Origin: Nesterenkonia pannonica
GTDB taxonomy: Bacteria > Actinomycetota > Actinomycetes > Actinomycetales > Micrococcaceae
DNA length: 64,000 bases
NCBI RefSeq assembly: GCF_019575955.1
Contig: NZ_CP080575.1
Coordinates: 682,001-746,000 of the forward strand
Direction: 5' to 3'
Shown here in pieces: positions 4,067 to 63,370 of the stretch. Every line of letters starts with the position of its first letter. The stretch's first letter is position 1. The notes below the pieces were generated by a model that searched no databases, was not told where the DNA came from, and worked only from the letters and a program-made list of their open reading frames with translations. A program made the translations under genes and the position numbers.

Positions 4067-7000
4067 TCAGGCGGCGAGGGCTCGGTCCCGGAAGTCCTCC
4101 AGGATCGTGACGACGGTGTCCACGCGATCTTCTCCGAGCACTTCGTCGGGCCCGTTCGGTGCGTAGTCCGTGAAGGGCGACTGGTAGAGGGAAGCCGCCT
4201 TCATTGCGCCGTTCACTGAGAGGTAGTCCACGATCAACTCGATGAACCGCAGCTGTTCAGCAGAGAAGTTTGCACCCTGGATGAACTGGGCGAAAGCCTC
4301 CCGGGCGACCTCCCTCTCTACGCCAACGATTCTGCGGATGAAGAGGCCGAGACCGTCAGCCTCTTGGGCAGCAGCTTCGACGTCTTCCCGAGTGCCGACG
4401 CCCGAATCCACCAGCATCTCCTCGAGGACCTGGATGTCCTGAGCAGTGAGCTGCCGGTTGAACCGAACACGCTGCAGCGCCACATGGTTGAGGTGCTTCT
4501 GAAGGAACTGCTCCGCTTTCTGGCGGAACCGGGCCAGGTCTGTTGCTTAGGCGTTGTATGCCTCAGGAAGGCCTCAGCGACCGTGACGTCGGTGTCCTCG
4601 AAGTTCGTGTGGACGGGCGTCCATGTTCGGGGCTCGACATAGTGGACGATGTTGCGCAGGGTTGTTCGTACCTTCTCCAGCCGTACGGAGTCTGCCCCAG
4701 CCCACCAGGCATCATCCTGAAGGTCCTGAAGGAGCGGTGTGTGCTGGTCGACCGCCGGGATGCTCCTGCGAGTCAGAAGGTCTTCGGCGATGTCTTGGAT
4801 CTTGTTCCGCTGGGCAGCGAACAGTTCGGCATCGCCTTCCACTTGCGCCGTTTGGGCCTGAAGGATCGTGTAGTCGAAGCTCTTTGCCTCCTCCTTCTCC
4901 TGGGCGGAGGTTGAGGGAAGCGGACCAAACGTCTGCGAGAGCTGCTGAACTTCCGCCGCATTGATGTGCCGCCACTTGCTGCGGGGGTGTACTGCACGAG
5001 CAGTTCTCGGTGGGGACGCACTTGGACAAAGTCCGGGTTCATGCCCCGCAGGTGCTGCAGTGTGCTCTCCAGGACATGTTCCCGGAGTGTTTTTCGGTGG
5101 TCGGCTAAGAGGGCTGCGCCGGGCCCCTCATCCAGGGAGTTCAGGAGGCGCAGACGTGACTCGAAAAGACGTTCGCTGAGAGACTTTGGGCGGGGACGCG
5201 GCTTCTCTTCTCGGTCTTCGTCGAAGAACGCGAGGTTGTCCCCGAAGTCGAGGATGAGGAAGTTCTCCTTGTCCTGGTCGGGACCGAAGAGGTTCTCACA
5301 GAGCCGTGTGCCACGGCCCACCATCTGCCAGAACTTGGCCTTGGAGTACACGGTCTTGAAGAACACCAGATTCACCACGGATGGGACGTCGATGCCGGTG
5401 TCGAGCATGTCGACGGTGATGGCGATCTGCGGTTCGGAGTCCTGCTTTGAGAAATCTCTGATGAGCTCTTGGACCCGCTCGACCTCATGCGTAATGACTC
5501 GTGCGAAGTTGCCGCCCAAATGCGGGTACTGCTCAGTGAAGCTCTCGTAGAGGGCGTAGGCGTGCTCCTGGTTCTGGGCGAAGATGATCGTCTTGCCCAG
5601 CACGTCCCCGCTTACCACATGGATGCCTTCCTCCATGAGGGTCGCCAGCACTTTGTTGTTCGTGTCCCTGTTGAGCACCTTGCGGTTCATGTCCTGCTTG
5701 CGGACCACCTCGGGGATCAGTCCCGCCTCGTCGGTGCCGGGATCCGTCCATTCCAGGGCCTCCCACTGTTCTCGGTCGTCCTCGGACATCTCGTCGTACC
5801 GCATCCCGTGGCTGAGGAACTGCGTTTCGGCGGCCCGAGGGATGTAGGGAACTAACCATCCTTTCGCGATGGCTTCCTCGAGGGGGTAGGTGTCGGTGGG
5901 CACGCCGTTCTCCTGGCCGAAGAACTCGAATGTGCTGCGGTGCACGTCTTCGACTGGCGTGGCTGTGAGTCCCACGAGGTGAGCGTCGAAGTAGTCGAAG
6001 AGGGACCTGTAGGAGGCATAGATGGAACGGTGTGCCTCGTCCACGATGACCAGGTCGAAGAACCCAGGCCCGAACATTCTCTCTTCGGGCTTCAGCAGGT
6101 TCATCATGGTCGGGTAGGTGCAGACGAAGACTCGACCGTCGGTGTTCTTCTCGGTGACGAGATTGATCGGGGAGCGTCGGGCAGGTTCTGCCGAAAGGCA
6201 TCGACTGCCTGGTTCACGAGGGCTACGCGGTCGGCCAGAAACAGCACTCGTTTAGCCCAGCTAAGCTCGCATCATTTGATCGGCCAGGGCGATCACGGTA
6301 CGGGTTTTGCCGGTGCCGGTGGCCATCACCAGCAGGGACCGGCGTCGCATCTGGGCGAACTGCTGGCCCACACTCCGAATCATCCTCTCTTGGTATGGCC
6401 GACCTGCGATGCTGTCATTGATGGCGGTCTCAGCCAGCGGCTTCCGGGCGGTGCGGGAACGGATGCGCCACTGCAGGTCGGTTTTGGTGAGGAACCCGTC
6501 GACTCGGCGCGGCGGGTATCCCTTGAGGCCGAAGGCGGTGTCATCCCACAGCATGGTCCGGTAGCCGTTGGTGTAGAAGATGAGGGGCGCTGACCGTAGT
6601 CGCGTTCGATCCCGTCGGCGTAGAGCTTGGCCTGTTCCTGGCCCACCTCTGCTTTGCGGAGGGTGCGTTTAGCCTCGACGACGGCTAGGGGCAGGCCGTC
6701 ATCTGACCACAGCACGTAGTCCACAAAGCCGGTAGCGGTGCATGCCCCGGTGGCGTCGGGCATGCCGGTGACCCGGTGTTCGCGGGTTGCGTCAGCGTCG
6801 GCGACATCGGGACCTTCGAGGCGCCACCCAGCAGCTTGAGGTCCACATCAATCTGGTAGAGACGGGTGCTGCGCTCGTCCGGGTCACGCTCGTCAAAGAC
6901 CGCAGTGGCCTGCTGGGCCTGTTCGCTCTGCGCTGCGGCGGCGTGGGCTGCACGGAGCGTTTCCAGCTCGGCTTCTAGCTCTGCGTTCTTGGCGGCGGAC

Positions 7001-54059: not shown

Positions 54060-55535
54060 TCAGGCTGTGCGGCGCAGCAGGCCGAGCTCAGGCAGGCGGT
54101 CCACGGAGAACTCTCCGGGCCTGTGGAATCGGCAGAAGCCGCCCTCGGGGACCTGCTGCAGGTAGGAGGCCATCTGGGCGAGCTCGGCCGCGGAGAAGTC
54201 CTCCACGCGGCGACGCCTGGCGGGCGCTGTGCGCTGGGACTCCTCCGGGGTCCACCGCGAGGCCGAAGAGTGCTTCGAGGGCGGCGACGTATTCGTTCGT
54301 CCGCCCCTCGGAGGCCAGCTCGCGGGCGCGCACTGTGGGGGTGTGCAGGAGCTTCCGCACGATCCGTCGGGCGGCGAACTCCACCTCTTCGGCGGCGGCC
54401 GTGCAGCCGTGCTGCTTGCGCACCTTCTCCATCTCGTCGTCGAAGAGGGACTGTGTGTGCTTGCGCAGAGCGACGATGGCCTGGTCTGCGGTGCGCTCCT
54501 GCGGGCGGCGAGGTACTGCTGCACCGAGTCCGCCACCACCGCACGGGCCTGCTCCACCGAGGCGGAGGTCTCGTCGGGGGCTGCGAGCTTCACCGACTCC
54601 AGGGTGACGAGCTCCACTCCGGGCAGCTCGGCCACGTCCGGGGTGAAGTCGTGCGAGAGGGCAAGGTCGATGACGATCAGCGGGGGCGGCCCTCGGCCTG
54701 GCGGCGCTCCAGCTGAGCCAGGCTGCGGATCTCGCCTGCCGTGATCCGTCGGTTTCCGCCGGACGCTCCGATGACGACGTCAGCGCTTACCAGGGTGGGG
54801 CCAGCTCGTGCATCTGCAGGTGACGGGCGGAGCCTCCTCGGGCGGCAAGGTGCACCGCGCGCTCCGCGAGGAAGGCCTCGGCCCGTCCGGAGCCGGAGAA
54901 CACGGAGATGTCCTGGACGCCGCGCTCGGCGAGCTGGGCCAGCGTCGTCCCTGCGTAGGCGCCGGTGCCGATGAGCAGTGCGTTGGCGCCGGGATAGAAC
55001 GCGTCCGATCCGCCGCGGATGTCCCCGGCGATGTCCAGTGCCACGGAGACGATGGAGCGGCCGCGCGCTCCGAGCGCCGTGCGGGCGCCCACGTCCTTGG
55101 CCGTGCGGGTGGCGGTTTCGAAGAGCTTGGTCAGATTGGCCGAGACCGTGCCGGCCTCCTGCGCCTCCGTCAGTGAGCGCCTGACCTGCCCGGCGATCTC
55201 ACGCTCCCCGATGACGGCGGAGTCGAGGCCCGCTCCCACTTCGAAGAGGTGGCTGACGGCGTCGTCGTCCACGAGCACTTTGAAGCTTCGGGCGACGGTC
55301 TCCGTGTCCAGCTGGGAGGACTCCGCGACCGCCTCGATGAGGGTGCGGCAGGATGCGTCGATGCCTTCGGGGTGTCCGACTGGGACTCCGCGTAGATCTC
55401 AAGACGATTGCACGTGGCCAGGGTGACGGCAGGCAGAGATACAGAAGCGGCGACATCGGCCGCTCCTGACGAGAGGGTTCCGACGGTCTCGAGGTCGAGG
55501 TCGGAGTGGGTTGCGACAAGTGAGAACAGAACCAC
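54060..55535 (-). CDS. hemA: Glutamyl-tRNA reductase
   Basis: First enzyme of heme synthesis by the C5 route. Catalytic Cys in [30 protein letters not shown]-binding [17 protein letters not shown] and ASGGNRRI, and dimerisation helix [21 protein letters not shown]-terminal part of about 60 residues follows LFGLAVDP and ends LGLLRRTA, longer than the usual 430 residues. Breaks near 55375, 54790 (GTAAGC on the coding strand), 54695, 54505 and 54240. GTG start at 55535, divergent from hemE. Confidence 0.9.
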
Positions 55536-55612
55536 GGCGTCCTACAGTCTAACTCCTCGATCTCCCGGGGCACTTCAGGGGCGCACGCGCGCCGGGGGCC
55601 AGCGTGCACTGG

Positions 55613-55618
55613 CAGAAT
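55613..55618 (+). promoter_or_regulatory. -10 box of hemE, leaderless start
   Basis: CAGAAT followed by 7 bases and the ATG at 55626, in the divergent hemA/hemE gap. Confidence 0.5.
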
Positions 55619-55625
55619 GGGCGCC

Positions 55626-56709
55626 ATGACTCTGACCGGCCTCCCTGAGAACCACCCGCTCGCCTCCGGTGCCACCGCAGACTCCCGCTCCTCAACCAGT
55701 ACCGCGGCGGTCGCAGCGCAGCCGGTGAGACGGCGGCTCCGCATCGCCGCCCGGTGTGGTTCATGCGGCAGGCGGGACGTTCGCTCCCGGAGTACCGCAG
55801 GCTCCGCGAGAACACCACCATGCTGGGTGCGTGCCTCGACCCTGAGATGGCCTCAGAGATTACGATGCAGCCGGTCCGGCGGCACGACGTCGACGCGGCG
55901 ATCTTCTTCTCCGACATCGTGATCCCGCTGCGCCTGGCAGGCATCGACGTGGAGATCCAGCCGGGCGTGGGCCCTGTCCTGGGGAGCCCGGTGCGCACAG
56001 CCGCAGATGTGGCGAAGCTGCCGGAGCTGGATGAGGACGCGTTCGCTCCCATCGTCGAGGCCGTGCAGCTCACCACAGCCCAGCTGGGCTCCACTCCGCT
56101 GATCGGATTCGCAGGGGCCCCGTTCACCCTCGCCGCCTACATGGTGGAGGGCCCTCACGGGACCACCTGGGGCCGCGCACCATGATGCACGCCGACCCGG
56201 ACACCTGGAGGGCGCTCGCCGAGTGGGCTGCAGCCGCCTCCGGCGCGTTCCTGCGCGCCCAGGTGAAGGCCGGAGCCTCCGCGGCTCAGCTCTTCGACTC
56301 CTGGGCAGGCTCGCTGGGCCGAGCCGACTACGCCGAACATGTCATGCCGCATTCGACGGCTGCCCTCTCGCAGGTCAGGGACCTGGGTGTGCCCCTGGTG
56401 CACTTCGGCACCGGCACCGGCGAGATCCTGGATCTGATGAAGGAGGCGGGAGCTGACGTGGTCGGCGTGGACTATCGCCTGAACCTGGCGGAGGCCACTC
56501 GTCGCCTCGGGGCCCAGACCCCGCTGCAGGGGAACATCGACCCGGCGCTGCTGACGGCGCCCTGGGAGGTCCTCGAGGCCCATGTGCGTGCGGTCGCCGA
56601 AGCAGGGTCCGGCGCAGCCGGGCACGTGCTGAACCTGGGGCACGGTGTGCCTCCCGAGACTGACCCCGAGGTCCTCACCCGCGTCGTAGAGCTGATCCAC
56701 TCCCTGTGA
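55626..56709 (+). CDS. hemE: Uroporphyrinogen decarboxylase
   Basis: About 360 residues. Substrate-binding Arg in [56 protein letters not shown] and [13 protein letters not shown] near the end. Makes coproporphyrinogen III. Breaks near 55690 and 56155. Stop overlaps hemY by GTGA. Confidence 0.93.
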
Positions 56710-58192
56710 CCGTCGCCGTCGTCGGGGGCGGGGTCGCCGGAATGGTGGCCGCCTGGGAGCTTGCGCGCACCTCCGAGCGCGACGTCGTGATCTTCGAAGC
56801 ATCTGACCGGCTGGGCGGGGCTCTGGCGCCTCTGCGGTTCGGCTCCGTGACCCTGGACGCCGGGGCCGAGGCGTTCGCCACCCGCGGGCCCGAGGTGCGG
56901 GACTTCGTCGAGCAGCTCGGCCTGGAGAGCCTGCTGACCGACCCCCACCCCGTCGGCGCGTGGCTGCAGCTCCCGCACGCCGCCGGGCCTCTGCCGCTCG
57001 CCGGAATCCTCGGCATCCCCGCGGATCCTGAGGCTGAGGATGTGCGTGCCCTCATCGGAGACGCAGCCGCCGAGCGTGCGGCGCAGGACCTGCACGCACC
57101 GATGAGGTGGACCGCACAGGACCGCCCCTCGGTCGGAGCCGTGGTGAGGGATCGCATGGGCGATGCGCTCGCCGACACCCTGGTGGCCCCCATCACTGCT
57201 GGGGTCTACTCCGCGGGCCCGGACGCCCTGGATCTGAGGACGGTCGCACCCGGGCTGTTCGAGACGATGCTCACGGAGGGCTCGCTGGCGCGTGCCGTGG
57301 GCGCGCAGAAGGGGCGGCAGGAGGCTGCGGCGAAGGCCGGGTCCGCTGTGCAGTCCCTCAGGGAGGGCTCTGGGGCCTGGTCGACGTGCTGGAGCGGCAG
57401 CTGCTCGCCGCAGGGGTCAGGATCGAGCGCGGTCGGCGCATCGAGGATCTTGCTGAGATCTCCGACTGCGAAGACATCGTCATCGCCCTCGACGCACCGG
57501 AGGCCTCGGACCTGCTGTCGAGGGCGCTGAGCTTCCCTCCCCTGCCGTCCGCGTTCGGCGGCCTCGGCACGACGATCCCGCGGTCCAGCGGAAGCGGACT
57601 CCCTCCGTGGCTCATCGATGACGCTACGCGAGGAGTCGCCCTGGTCACGCTGCTGCTGAACGCGCCTCAGCTCGATGCCAGGCCCCGCGGCACAGGCATG
57701 CTCGTCTCGCCCAAGGCGGAGGGCATCACGGCGAAGGCCATGACGCACATCTCCGCCAAGTGGGGGTGGGCGAAGGAGGAGCTCGACGCGCAGCTCGGAG
57801 CTGGTCATCACGCCGTGCGACTGTCCTACGGCCGCATCGAGGATCCGCACGGCCCCGGTCGGGGCTCCTCCGACGAGGAGCTGATCGCACTGGCGCGACG
57901 GGACGTGGTGACCCTCTTCGGCCAGGATCTTGTGGGAGGCCCGATCTCTGGGGAGCAGATCCTTGATGCCCGAGTGGCGCGATGGCAGAGGGCGCTGCCG
58001 GGCACAAGCGCCGTCCAGGCGGCCCGGCTCCGTGAGGTGCAGGCCGCGCTGCGGCGCAGCGGCAGGATGTCCGGGAGCGGCCGTCCTCGGCTGCATCTGG
58101 CGGGAACGTGGTTTGCCGGAACAGGCCTGGCGCGCGTCGTCCCTCACGCGCGTAGAGTGGCGACGGACATCGCGCGGATCTCTTCTACGTGA
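56706..58192 (+). CDS. hemY: Protoporphyrinogen / coproporphyrinogen III oxidase
   Basis: About 495 residues. FAD-binding VAVVGGGVAGMVAAWELA at the N-terminus and the C-terminal LHLAGTWFAGTGLARVVPHA motif. With HemQ next door, it most likely oxidises coproporphyrinogen III (CgoX role). One break near 57360. GTG start. Confidence 0.9.
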
Positions 58193-58212
58193 CGTAGAAG
58201 AGCCGCTAGAAT
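58182..58212 (+). promoter_or_regulatory. Palindromic operator and promoter of hemQ
   Basis: CTTCTACGT-G-ACGTAGAAG (58182-58200) is a perfect 9-base inverted repeat that contains the hemY stop. TAGAAT (58207-58212) is the -10 box, and the -35 position falls inside the palindrome. A repressor there would block initiation. Confidence 0.6.
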
Positions 58213-58261
58213 GACGAATTGCGAATAACTCAGAAAAGCCTGTGCCGAAGGAGGCGCCCCT

Positions 58262-59033
58262 ATGAGCTACGGACGCAATGCGCAGCGGACTCCCGAAGAG
58301 GTCAACTCGTCCGGCAAGGATTGGTTCACGCTCTATGCCGTGTTCAAGCGCGCCTCCTGGCGCGGCTCCCTGGCAGGGCAGGGACGGCTGCCGTCTCAGC
58401 TCCTGCCCCGGAAGAAGCACGTCAAGGAGTTCGACGCGGAGGTCGGCTCCTTTGCGGGCAAGGGATTGGGCCGCGACGAGGACGCTGTGGAGCTTCAGGG
58501 CGTCTACGACGTCTCCGGGATGCGCGCCGACGCGGACGTGATGGTCTGGCTGGTGGGGCACAAGGCGGAGAACATCCAGGCCGCCCTGCGCGCTCTGCAC
58601 CGAACCCACCTGCTCGCGCGCACCGAGATCGCGTTCTCGGCGATGGGCGTGCACCGCACTGCCGAGTTCGCTCGCGGCCATGTGCTTAACCTTCGCGCGC
58701 GGCGTCGAGGCTGAGGAGTGGCTGTGCGTCTACCCGTTCAACCGCTCATACGACTGGTATCTCATGGACCCGGCCAAGCGCGGCGCGCTGCTGCGTGAGC
58801 ACGGCGAGCTGGGCCAGGAGTTCCCCTCTGTCCTGGCGAACACCACGAGCGCCTTCGCCCTCAACGACTGGGAGTGGCTCCTGGCGCTCGAGGCCCCGGA
58901 GCTTCGCGATCTGGTGGACATGATGCGCTTACTCCGGGAGTCGGAGACCCGCTATCACGTGCGCGACGAGACCCCGTTCTACACCGGGCGTCGGCTGGGC
59001 TCCGCTGCAGAGCTGCTGGAGGTGCTCCGGTGA
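58262..59033 (+). CDS. hemQ: Coproheme decarboxylase (HemQ / ChdC)
   Basis: About 258 residues. Final step of the coproporphyrin-dependent heme route. NSSGKDWFTLYAVFK start, YPFNRSYDWYLM with the catalytic Tyr, and ETRYHVRDETPFYTG. GCTTAAC at 58684 breaks the frame; GCCGGC restores HVPAFARG. GCTTAC at 58930 is probably Arg-Arg as MMRRLRESE. Good GAAGGAGG ribosome site before the ATG. Confidence 0.92.
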
Positions 59034-59067
59034 TCATCCTGCTCGCTGCGTCTTCCGAAGGGGCCGC

Positions 59068-60099
59068 ATGAGCCCCAGCGGTGCCGCACTGCGCGTGGGA
59101 ACCCGCGCGTCGAGGCTTGCCCTGAAGCAGACGGGCACGACCGCTGACGCACTGTCGGATCTGGCCGGTCAGGAGTACGAGCTCGTCACCATCAGGTCCG
59201 AGGGCGATGTGCTCACCGGTCCGCTCTCGCAGATGGGCGGGACCGGAGTCTTCGCGACGGCCCTGCGGCAGGCCCTCTTCGATGAGCGCGTCGACGTGGC
59301 CGTCCACTCCATGAAGGACCTCCCGTCCAAGGACCTCGAGGGCCTCTCCATCGCGGCGGTTCCGGTGCGCGAAGAGGTGCGCGACGCCCTGTGCGCAGCA
59401 GAGGGCATGATGCTGGAGGAGCTTCCCGAGGGCGCGACGATCGGGACCGGCTCCCCGCGCCGGGCTGCGCAGCTCCGGGCCGCGCGTCCGGACCTGAATG
59501 TGGTGGACATCCGAGGCAATGTGGGCACCCGGCTTGCACGGGTCCGCGGCTTCGAAGAGGCGGCGGAGGCGTCCTCGCAGGCTCCCGATGCTGCACGCGG
59601 CGACCTGGATGCCGTGGTGCTGGCTTAGCGCCGGTCTGGGCCGACTCGGCCTGGAGGACTACATCTCTGAGCTCATCGACCCGGAGGTCATGACCCCGCG
59701 CCAGGGCAGGGCGCCCTGGCTGTGGAGGTGCGGGCCCCTGATGCCGGCGGCATGACTGGTCTGAGCATGGCGCTGGCGCAGCTGGAGGACATCCCGTCGC
59801 GCCTGGAGGTCACAGCGGAGCGGGCTCTGCTCGCCCGGCTGAACGCTGGGTGCTCCGCCCCTATTGGTGGGCTGAGCCGCTGCGTCGATGAGCCTGACGG
59901 TGGGGTGCGCCTGCGCCTGGACACTGTGGTCTGCGCACCGGACGGCTCGGACGTCCAGCGCGCGGGTGAGGAGATCACCATGGAGGCGGGGCTGACCCGG
60001 GAGGCCGGGATGGACGCCGCTGCGAAGCTCGGCACGCGCGTCGCAGAGACGCTCCTCGCCGAGGACAGAGGCCTGCTGAAGCACGTCATCGACACCTGA
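59068..60099 (+). CDS. hemC: Porphobilinogen deaminase
   Basis: About 345 residues. RVGTRASRLALKQT, VDVAVHSMKDLP, GTGSPRRAAQL, and the dipyrromethane cofactor Cys in LNAGCSAPIGG. GCTTAGC at 59628 makes a stop; GCCGGC gives VLAGAGLGRLGLED. One more break near 59698. Builds hydroxymethylbilane. Confidence 0.94.
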
Positions 60100-60109
60100 G
60101 GAGCAGCGC

Positions 60110-60175
60110 ATGGGTGATGCGGCGCCGCACGCTGCGGACATTCTGCAGAGACGACATGTCGACGAGGCTTACTGA
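60110..60175 (+). CDS. Possible 21-residue leader ORF before hemD
   Basis: ATG-initiated ORF with GAGGAGC upstream, ending TGATG into the hemD start. Could couple translation from hemC to hemD. No family; coding not certain. Confidence 0.3.
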   Translation: MGDAAPHAADILQRRHVDEAY

Positions 60176-60888
60176 TGGGCAGTCTCCGGATCGTCCTGAC
60201 GCGACCGGCGTCCGGTGCTGGGCCGTTGGAGGACGGGCTCGAACAGGCGGGCCTCGTGCCTACCCACCTGCCGCTCACGCGCCAAGCGCCCCTGAGGACG
60301 GGAGTCGGCTCACCGAGGGCATCGATCGCCTGGCCGCGGCGAATGTGACTGGCTGCTGCTGACCTCAGGCAATACTGTTCGGTTCCTCCTCGAGGCCGGG
60401 TGGGCGGGCGCCGTCCCCGGGCACCCGAGTGGGTGCGGTGGGTCCCGGCACTGCCCAGGCGCTGGCCCGGCTCACGGAGATCGACCGCCCATGGGTGCCC
60501 GCGCTCCACAGCGCACAAGGAATCCTCGACGAGTTCGGGCAGGCTAGGCGCAGCGAATCGGATCTTCCTTCCGCAGTCGGCCCAGGCCCGGCCGCTGCTT
60601 GCGGATGGTCTTCTGAGCATGGGCTGGCAGGTTGTCTCGGCCCCCGCCTACGAGACGGTCCCCGTACAGGGACCTCTGCCCTGGCGGCCCGAAGCCGAGG
60701 ACGTCGTTCTGGTCACGGCCTCATCGGCGGCTCACGAGTGGGTCCGCCGTGGTCTCAGCGCCCGGGCGGTCCTGGCTATCGGTGAGCCCACCGCCCGGAG
60801 TCTGCGCGAGCTGGGCGCACCGGCGGATGCTGTTCTCGCAGAGCCGACCGCCGCAGGCGTGCTCGCGGCGGTCGAATCGTTAGGCTGA
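60175..60888 (+). CDS. hemD: Uroporphyrinogen-III synthase
   Basis: About 240 residues. [14 protein letters not shown] start, [39 protein letters not shown] and [14 protein letters not shown]. Low sequence conservation is normal for HemD; position between hemC and hemB supports the call. Breaks near 60295, 60345, 60420 and 60545. Confidence 0.85.
60881..60886 (+). promoter_or_regulatory. -10 box of hemB, leaderless start
   Basis: TAGGCT, 6 bases, then the ATG at 60893; it overlaps the end of hemD. Gives hemB-hemL a possible promoter of their own. Confidence 0.45.
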
Positions 60889-60892
60889 GCCC

Positions 60893-61875
60893 ATGCCTTT
60901 CCCCGCTGATCGTCCCCGCCGTCTGCGCCGGACGCCTGCCCTTCGCCGGCTTGTCGCCGAGACGCGCCTGCACCCCGCTGACCTCATTCTTCCGATGTTC
61001 GTGCGGGAGGGCCTCTCGGAGCCGTCGCCGATCATTTCGATGCCCGGCGTCGTCCAGCACACTGAGGCGACCCTCCTGGATGCTGCGCGGGAGGCCCGTG
61101 ACCTGGGCCTGGGCGGCATCATGCTCTTCGGCATTCCCTCCGCGCGGGACCCGCAGGGCAGCGCTTGGCGCCGATCCCGACGGCATCCTCAACCGCTCGA
61201 TCCGCGCTGTGAAGAATGCCGTGGGGAGGAGCTGCCGGTGATGAGCGACCTGTGCCTGGATGAGTTCACCGACCACGGGCACTGCGGCATCGTGGATGAG
61301 ACTGGGTATGTGGACAACGACGCCACCCTGGAGATCTACGCGCTGATGGGCGTGGAGCAGGCCAGGGCGGGTGCTGACGTCGTGGCGCCGTCAGGGATGA
61401 TGGACGGCCAGGTGGCAGTGATCCGGGAGGCTCTCGACGACGCCGGCTTCCAGCACGTGCCGATCCTCGCCTACGCCGCGAAGTACGCGTCCGGCTTCTA
61501 CGGACCTTTCCGGGAAGCAGTGGATTCCCAGCTCAAGGGAGATCGCAGGCAGTATCAGATGGATGCCCCGAACCGCCGGGAGGCGCTCAAGGAGGTCGAA
61601 CTGGACCTTGCCGAGGGCGCGGACATGGTGATGGTCAAGCCTGCCTCCGCCTACCTGGACATACTGGCCGATGTCGCTGCGACGTCCGATGTGCCCGTTG
61701 CTGCCTATCAGGTGTCGGGGAGTACGCGATGATCGAGGCCGCCTCCGCCCAAGGGTGGATCGACCGGAAGCAGGTGGCGATGGAGTCGCTGATGGCCATC
61801 CGCCGTGCAGGAGCCGACGCTGTGCTGACCTACTACGCCGCTGAGGCGGCTCGATGGATCAAGGAGACACCATGA
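60893..61875 (+). CDS. hemB: Delta-aminolevulinic acid dehydratase
   Basis: About 325 residues. [13 protein letters not shown], the metal/Cys region [14 protein letters not shown], Schiff-base lysines in [16 protein letters not shown] and [12 protein letters not shown]. Breaks near 61165, 61225 and 61722. Stop overlaps hemL by ATGA. Confidence 0.93.
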
Positions 61876-63170
61876 CGACCAACGCTGAGCTGTTCGAGAC
61901 CGCGCAGACGCTGATGCCCGGCGGGGTGAGCTCCCGGTGCGGGCCCACGGGTCCGTGGGAGGCACCCCGGTGTCCATGGTCGCGGGCGATGGCGCCTGGC
62001 TGACCGACGCCGAGGGCAGCTCCTATGTGGACCTGGTGGGGTCGTGGGGCCCTGCCCTTCTGGGGCACAGGCACCCTGCGGTGATCGAGGCGGTGCGGTC
62101 GGCGGTCGACTCCGGCCTGGGCTTCGGCACGTCGCACCCTGGTGAGGCCCGGCTGGCCTCATTGGTGCGGGACAGGGTGCCGGGCGCAGAGCGGGTGCGG
62201 TTCGTCTCCACGGGCACGGAGGCCACAATGACGGCGGTCCGGCTGGCCCGTGGCGCCACCGGCAGAAACATCGTGGTCAAGTTTGCTTACTGCTACCACG
62301 GGCACTCTGACGGGCTGCTCGCCGCGGCAGGTTCGGGCGTGGCCACCATGGGCCTGCCGGGATCTGCGGGAGTGACCTCGGCGCAGGCCTCCGAGACGAT
62401 CGTCATCGAGTACAACGACCGGGGAGCCCTCGAGCAGGTCTTCGCTGAGCACGGCGAGAGCATCGCTGCGGTGATCACGGAGGCGACCCCGCGAACATGG
62501 GCGTGGTGCCCCCGATGAGGGCTTCAACGCGTTCATCCGTGAGGTCACGCAGGAGCACGGCGCCCTCATGATCTTCGATGAGGTCATGACCGGCTTCCGC
62601 ATCACGGAGGTAAGCTATTGGGAGCCTCCGGCCGTGTCGAGGGGTGGGTCCCGACCTGTTCACCTTCGGGAAGGTCATCGGCGGAGGTCTTCCGACGGCG
62701 GCGCTGGCAGGCCGCGCCGAGCTGATGGAGCACCTGGCGCCCACCGGGCCGTCTATCACGCGGGCACCCTGTCCGGTAACCCAGTGGCGATGGCTGCCGG
62801 GGCGGCCACGCTGGAGAACGCCGATGCTGCGGTCTATGCGCATCTCGACGAGACGGCTCGGACTGTCGCTGACGCACTCACTGCGTCCCTGACCGCGGCC
62901 GGGGTGGACCACTCGCTGCAGAAGGTGGGCAATCTGTTCTCGGTGGCTTTCGGGACCTCGGAGAGCGGTGTGAGCAACTACGCACAGGCTGGGGCGCAGG
63001 AGGCCTTCCGCTACGGCCCGTTCTTCCACGCGATGCTGGATGCTGGGGTGTACCTGCCGCCCAGTGTCTTCGAGGCATGGTTCGTGTCCGCGGCCCACGA
63101 TGAGGCCGCTGTCGATCGGATCCTGGAAGCGCTGCCCACGGCGGCAAAGGCTGCCGCACAGGCTTACTAG
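61872..63170 (+). CDS. hemL: Glutamate-1-semialdehyde aminomutase
   Basis: About 430 residues. [31 protein letters not shown] lysine in [12 protein letters not shown] and [20 protein letters not shown] at 62285 reads KFAY where the family has KFAG; GTAAGC at 62612 and GCTTAC at 63162 are similar. Breaks near 61935, 62495, 62640 and 62745. Supplies ALA for the cluster. Confidence 0.93.
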
Positions 63171-63370
63171 CGAAGGGCCGGGAGGCTGAGCTGTTCGGAG
63201 GCTGCGCCGAGCAGGCCGTAGTCGACGCGGTCGCCGAGCCAGCCGCTGACCAGCAGGTAGAGGCCGATGAATGCCAGAACGGCGAGGATGATGATTCTCA
63301 CCGGCAGCCCTTTGCCCGTGTCCTCCTCGGGGCGCTCATCGTCGTCGTTGAGGTGCGGGTAGTTGCTCAT
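63167..63370 (-). CDS. Small membrane protein
   Basis: 67 residues, intact. Acidic N-terminus, one hydrophobic segment (IIILAVLAFIGLYLLVSGWL) and a short polar tail. Its stop overlaps the convergent hemL stop by four bases and its start overlaps the exonuclease stop. Unknown function. Confidence 0.6.
   Translation of the reverse strand: MSNYPHLNDDDERPEEDTGKGLPVRIIILAVLAFIGLYLLVSGWLGDRVDYGLLGAASEQLSLPALR

Follow-up and report, generated by a model that had tools for sequence, protein, structure and literature searches.

A conserved palindrome upstream of hemQ is a probable BlaI-family operator and may link heme synthesis to aerobic respiration genes

The inverted repeat upstream of hemQ is very probably a functional operator for a winged-helix repressor of the BlaI/MecI/CopY family (PF03965), encoded elsewhere in the genome. 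Across the source organism's family, a BlaI-type repressor seems to couple the final step of heme synthesis to aerobic respiration genes. Through the site, a group of repressors familiar from antibiotic resistance would be joined, family-wide, to heme synthesis and to much of the aerobic respiratory chain. The conserved site, its co-occurrence with blaI and its neighbours come directly from comparisons between genome sequences.

The window, meaning the whole 64-kb stretch of DNA that was analysed, contains the following features around the repeat.

57107..58192, plus strand: hemY, 3' part, frame broken upstream, stop within the palindrome (reading frame and NCBIfam)
58180..58202, no strand assigned: perfect 11+1+11 inverted repeat, proposed BlaI-family operator of hemQ (repeat analysis and core conservation)
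58183..58199, no strand assigned: conserved core TTCTAC-N5-GTAGAA (12/12 match)
58207..58212, plus strand: TAGAAT, possible -10 of a hemQ promoter (by eye; unsupported by the promoter scan)
58250..58254, plus strand: GGAGG, likely hemQ ribosome-binding site (by eye)
58262..58714, plus strand: hemQ, N-terminal part, frame broken (NCBIfam HemQ_actino positions 21-107 of 220, E 1.1e-24)
58680..59033, plus strand: hemQ, C-terminal part (NCBIfam HemQ_actino positions 108-219 of 220, E 2.7e-52)
59068..59628, plus strand: hemC, first part, 34 bases 3' of hemQ (NCBIfam hemC)

The repeat at 58180-58202 is a 23-bp sequence, CTCTTCTACGT-G-ACGTAGAAGAG, with 11-base arms that are 100% complementary around a 1-base spacer, and it ends 59 bases before the hemQ ATG (58262). 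The first-pass annotation had described a 19-base palindrome with 9-base arms; its sequence and place were right, the 19-mer being the inner part of the 23-bp repeat, but the arms are in truth 11 bases long. The overlap it reported with the hemY stop is there, since the hemY-frame TGA at 58190-58192 sits within the repeat. Its placement of the palindrome over the hemQ -35 region was not borne out in the source genome: no sigma-70-like promoter passed in a scan of 58050-58400, so any overlap with a -35 element is presumed. The same annotation proposed that the last heme step is controlled separately from the cluster, which is only partly right, because hemC starts 34 bases after hemQ, with which it may be transcribed, and because certain genera carry the site at the hemA/hemE end instead. 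The frames of hemE, hemY, hemQ, hemC and hemL are split here (window 55500-63200), and the NCBIfam scores of hemY and hemQ fall under the full-length cut-offs because their frames are broken in this assembly. As the estimated completeness of the genome is 62% despite a single 2.7 Mb contig, the split heme frames look like many sequencing indels rather than decay.

Perfect repeats of this kind (arms of at least 11 bases, spacer of at most 3) are expected 0.23 times per 64 kb in first-order Markov simulations, and at least one occurred in 5 of 30 windows simulated in this way. One such repeat per window is compatible with chance, so the palindrome counts for little by itself and draws its weight from conservation. 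Searched at up to 3 mismatches, the 19-mer finds only itself in the 64-kb window, and hence there is no copy at a siderophore operon within it. The 12-base core, at up to 2 mismatches, finds itself and one 10/12 place at 5908, and shuffles average 0.27.

A regulatory site, according to the first-pass annotation, should recur in the genome and be kept upstream of hemQ in relatives. We compared 70 hemQ regions (30 loci from a homology search and 40 picked to cover all 32 genera) out of a family set of 149 genomes; the nearest named HemQ relatives come from 24 contigs, 23 of Nesterenkonia and 1 of Garicola, at 82-88% identity. Conservation in relatives is indeed observed, with the core present at 11 or 12 of 12 positions upstream of hemQ in 37 of the 70 family genomes and 21 of the 32 genera. 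None of 59 control palindromes, built from every other ordering of TTCTAC, reaches the level of the hemQ site in these 70 regions. The count includes the site of G027, which is far upstream and probably in coding sequence; the 10/12 matches in G022 and G023 lie inside hemQ coding sequence and were excluded.

With GTDB contigs added, 60 distinct hemQ sites could be aligned. Information content in the 12 core columns is 1.39 to 2.0 bits, in part by construction as rows were chosen for 11-12/12, and the pyrimidine before GTAGAA, a column outside the row choice, carries 1.11 bits; most flanking columns stay below 0.3. Around 59 distinct sites, the -10-like hexamer TA[AG][GA][CG]T is found 35 times from -60 to about +117, always in one of two zones: 24 copies lie 30-49 bases past the start of the site and 11 lie 11-30 bases ahead of it. 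This indirect evidence, from sites that are related to one another, would suit an operator that covers either the -35 flank of a promoter or its start region; the TAGAAT of the source genome does not fit the pattern counted in its relatives. The position of the site relative to the promoter differs among genera, and for that reason we speak of repression conditionally.

Five genomes without a hemQ-proximal site carry a core at 11-12/12 at the hemA/hemE end, whose genes were named by eye: G010, G064 (g11), G017, G046 (g17) and G022 (g22). G008 has cores at both hemQ and the hemA/hemE end. The site therefore appears to move within the heme cluster while its putative target stays. No core at 11/12 was found in the heme-cluster stretch read in G016, G020, G023 and G030, none at hemQ within the 1 kb read in G061, G103, G044 and G090, and none in the 1.8-kb cluster stretch of G087.

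The first search with the core pattern gave two sites between cydAB and a small gene that is followed by a membrane protease gene. The small gene encodes a BlaI/MecI/CopY-family repressor (PF03965), and homologues are present in 131 of the 149 family genomes. The source genome has a single one (G000:C1:1568480-1568815, PF03965 E 5.9e-24); its PF03965 score is 85.1 bits, with 89.0 in G012, 73.4 in G063 and 70.5 in G001, at a gathering cut-off of 22.6. Fifty blaI loci were compared, 30 from the homology search and 20 picked. A palindromic site at the repressor's own promoter, a mark of the BlaI family, is found in 49 of the 50, with the core at 11-12/12 within 500 bases upstream of blaI and the best control at 3; the lone exception, L194, is a distant blaI homologue whose core reaches 10/12. 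The source genome has the core at 11/12 upstream of blaI, and the core also stands at blaI in Nesterenkonia-type loci where cydAB does not adjoin it. Two or three cores occur in 28 of 30 blaI upstream regions (L115-L144), one pair being 21-26 bases apart; paired cores would suit cooperative binding.

Outside the family, we took the best 30 of 81 genomes' blaI loci, which leaves 28 without the source genome and G009. Within this best 30 of 81, 23 of the 28 upstream regions carry the core at 10/12 or better, and the best control reaches 6. Two loci from another family of the class (L293 and L303) have the half-sites TACTAC-N5-GTAGTA before blaI, with the same 5-base spacing; here the site and the repressor may have changed together.

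An M48/M56 membrane protease adjoins blaI in the intact relatives G012, G063 and G001, and its frame beside blaI is broken in the source genome. A penicillin-binding sensor domain was looked for in the three intact partners (321-340 residues) and only M48/M56 matches were found, which makes a beta-lactam bound by the partner itself an improbable signal. The best NCBIfam match of the repressor is CopY_TcrY at 37.7 bits, below the cut-off of 121.95, and the curated scores of BlaI_of_BCL (26 bits against 180) and MecI (22.3 against 250) are not reached either.

The site and the repressor occur together. Genomes with a clear BlaI have the hemQ site in 37 of 48 cases, against 0 of 18 genomes without BlaI (Fisher p = 5e-9, optimistic because the genomes are kin). 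The 48 leave out four g12 genomes that have only distant homologues (E 8e-9 to 3e-10); including them gives 37/52 against 0/18 (p = 4e-8). The 18 are all the family genomes without a match in the BlaI homology search, and 11 of the 48 lack a hemQ-proximal site. Genome-wide, a picked set of 32 BlaI-bearing genomes holds 167 perfect cores (62 + 15 + 90) against 11 for the reversed-pattern control (2 + 1 + 8), and the 18 BlaI-lacking genomes hold 2 in all against 3 for the control; the genomes are related, which makes these counts optimistic as well. The same association is seen inside g6, where BlaI is present in G061 and G103, each with a single core that lies at blaI, and G005, G036, G083, G120 and G134 have neither BlaI nor core. 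In g14, BlaI is present in G044, whose one core is at blaI, and in G090, which has no perfect core but an 11/12 match at blaI; five genomes without BlaI have no cores.

Elsewhere in these genomes, sites lie at cydAB, ctaC, ctaB, an ABC transporter-ctaA operon, resA/ccs genes, sdhC, SURF1 and copper-delivery genes (target genes were named by Pfam in part, otherwise by eye from translations). The source genome has 13 perfect cores and none of the reversed pattern, which supplies the further copies that the first-pass annotation asked for; together with the conservation upstream of hemQ, these copies support its view that the palindrome is a regulator's DNA site at the hemQ promoter. Seven of the 13 are respiratory or heme-related: five at hemQ, ctaC, ABC-ctaA, sdhC and resA, a sixth at a place aligning with the SURF1 spacer of G012, and a seventh in the spacer before trpD, with QcrA 1.7 kb behind and, as we assume from the usual gene order, ctaE and qcrC in between. 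Three others lie in a carD-lipoprotein spacer, at a stress-protein gene and at a small membrane protein, and three have no clear target. At one mismatch there are 6 further sites, against 9 for the reversed control, including blaI, a second ctaC site and one near atpB. We take the blaI and second ctaC sites as real because relatives have sites there; the atpB site (11/12) was dropped, one-mismatch matches being no commoner than in the control.

The relatives give a similar picture. G107 and G089 share nine sites at matching places in pairwise DNA alignments, namely SURF1, sdhC, a universal stress protein, isocitrate lyase with a small membrane protein, resA, a CopD-domain protein, ctaC, ctaB and an ABC transporter opposite a SufR-like gene, the transporter being followed by ctaA, ResB and CcsA type genes; seven of the nine concern respiration or its assembly. 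Among the 15 cores of G012, nine are clear (hemQ, blaI, ABC, CopD, SURF1, sdhC, resA, ctaC and ctaB), one is about 700 bases from a CopC gene, and the remaining five fall at two small membrane proteins, a PPOx/VIT1 pair, a carD-lipoprotein spacer and a place without clear target. G034 has 6 cores, at resA/ccs-type genes, an ABC transporter opposite a sufB-like gene, blaI-cydAB (2), hemQ and a CopC-like region. G049 has only 3 perfect cores, one at hemQ and the other two between blaI and cydA. The cores of G043 lie at blaI-cydAB, hemQ, a flavohemoglobin and a polyphosphate-kinase-like gene, and those of G001 at cydA-blaI and a small membrane protein. G063 and G137 (g10) have 7 and 6 cores; in each genome the blaI-cydAB spacer holds three of them and hemQ has one, a further core in G063 is at a flavohemoglobin gene, and the rest are less clear.

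From these patterns we infer binding by BlaI, repression, a protease step and a signal. A BlaI dimer on the TTCTAC-N5-GTAGAA core would keep RNA polymerase off the hemQ promoter, and it would also sit on its own promoter and on those of aerobic respiratory chain genes, placing heme completion and heme-using enzymes under common control. By analogy with staphylococcal BlaR1-BlaI, the neighbouring membrane protease would cleave BlaI on a signal, and heme completion, the oxidases and their assembly factors would then be released together. Judging from the targets, our guess is that the signal concerns respiration, heme or copper. More tentatively, and with rather less than even confidence, we propose that the BlaI-protease pair in these Actinomycetes fundamentally monitors the condition of the respiratory membrane and not beta-lactams. 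A failure of the aerobic chain, whether for want of copper, heme a or electron flow, would set off the protease, which has no recognisable sensor domain; cleavage of BlaI would then relieve heme completion, cytochrome bd and oxidase assembly all at once. Beta-lactamase control, as in M. tuberculosis, would be a later use of the pair.

The first-pass annotation named an iron- or heme-responsive repressor, and a regulator of that kind (IdeR/DtxR, Fur family or an HrrA-like response regulator) might be suspected at a heme gene, the more so as HrrA of Corynebacterium binds and represses hemQ according to part of one report (PMC7337898). The data argue otherwise: the window has no IdeR-like box at up to 3 mismatches from the consensus, the best IdeR match in the hemQ promoter is 10/19, and the sites track a BlaI/MecI/CopY-family gene and respiratory genes, the core being gone from hemQ in all 18 BlaI-lacking genomes and adjoining blaI in 49 of 50 loci. 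We consider this explanation very unlikely. The best IdeR-like match upstream of blaI, over 37 regions, is 13/19. An indirect iron link is possible, since the M. tuberculosis blaI is said, in an excerpt of PMC7924339, to be in the IdeR regulon. Alternatively, another regulator could recognise the core and control blaI as well, making BlaI a target instead of the reader. The evidence for BlaI is co-occurrence, and a regulator vanishing together with it would give the same pattern; but the core follows blaI into different neighbourhoods and other families, no other gene was seen to track the site in the loci inspected, and the half-sites resemble the MecI/BlaI operator halves. We hold such a regulator to be improbable.

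Two explanations that dispense with a DNA-binding protein deserve next to no credence. If the repeat acted as an RNA hairpin, either a hemY terminator or a hemQ attenuator, stable folding would be expected, and the RNA of 58160-58230 does fold more stably than 200 shuffled versions (z -3.59), a result to be expected of every perfect palindrome; yet 58050-58400 holds 0 terminator-like sites (a G+C-rich stem and a T run), and the same letters stand at unrelated promoters and on both sides of divergent genes, which a hairpin would not demand. A functionless chance palindrome could be drawn from the simulations, where 5 of 30 windows held a repeat as good, but it would not be kept before hemQ at a level that 0 of the 59 control palindromes attain. 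A BlaI-family repressor remains the preferred reader of the site.

By sequence, the closest solved structure to the repressor is 2g9w (E 6.7e-16), which we take to be BlaI of M. tuberculosis (Rv1846c); with BlaR (Rv1845c) it forms a known system whose repressor is of the same family as our candidate. In the excerpts of the relevant papers, M. tuberculosis BlaI binds the cytochrome bd and ATP synthase promoters and BlaR lacks an extracellular beta-lactam sensor (PMC5473688), BlaI regulates the atp operon (PMC5874750), and its regulon includes atpH and sigC (PMC8265638). The target named in the parts of these sources at hand is the beta-lactamase gene blaC, whereas hemQ, ctaC, ctaB, sdhC and cytochrome c assembly go unmentioned there.

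The BlaI and MecI of S. aureus belong to the same family (MecI 1okr, E 2.6e-4; BlaI 1sd4, E 2.7e-4) and are alike in forming a gene pair with a membrane metalloprotease (BlaR1/MecR1) and in having a palindromic operator; the staphylococcal operator has one base less between its halves than the site described here. Staphylococcus aureus BlaR1 senses beta-lactams by an extracellular domain, according to part of PMC5473688, whereas the three intact partners here show no such sensor. CopY/TcrY gives the best NCBIfam match and copper-delivery genes are among the targets, but the repressor scores far under the 121.95-bit cut-off and its putative targets are mainly respiratory. In Corynebacterium glutamicum a comparable coordinating part is played by HrrSA, which binds hemQ, other heme genes and both terminal-oxidase branches in the excerpt of PMC7337898, but HrrSA is a heme-responsive two-component system and not a BlaI repressor. 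No core above background was found in four Corynebacterium-type or distant hemQ loci, L099, L100 and L102 being Corynebacterium, in a scan that took minus-strand loci without reorienting them.

The repressor family and its tie to respiration are already known, and the hemQ target and the breadth of the regulon appear to be new. In the open-licence PMC literature we found no report of a BlaI regulon with hemQ or the aa3/bc1 chain; by term search, BlaI does not occur in a review on the regulation of heme synthesis (PMC10991733), nor do binding motif, palindrome, respiration, cytochrome, hemQ or heme in PMC12565901. The site gives hemQ a candidate regulator outside Corynebacterium, and the question of what a BlaR-like protease without a beta-lactam sensor responds to becomes testable, the targets pointing at respiration, heme and copper supply.

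Some further neighbours of the core recur. A small membrane protein has an upstream core in five genomes (L230:1074-1487, L236:1569-1967, L257:1566-1991, L269:1530-2003 and L309:1561-1941) and is adjoined by isocitrate lyase in 3 of the 5 loci; the L236 protein matches no Pfam or NCBIfam family. Both G012 and the source genome have a core in the spacer that separates carD from a divergent gene for a small lipoprotein (L108:6298, L215:1501), the G012 lipoprotein again matching neither Pfam nor NCBIfam. Flavohemoglobin genes with an upstream core occur in two genera (G063 and G043; L249:1501, L316:1501), and on the opposite side of the G063 site lies an Rrf2-like regulator gene, named by eye.
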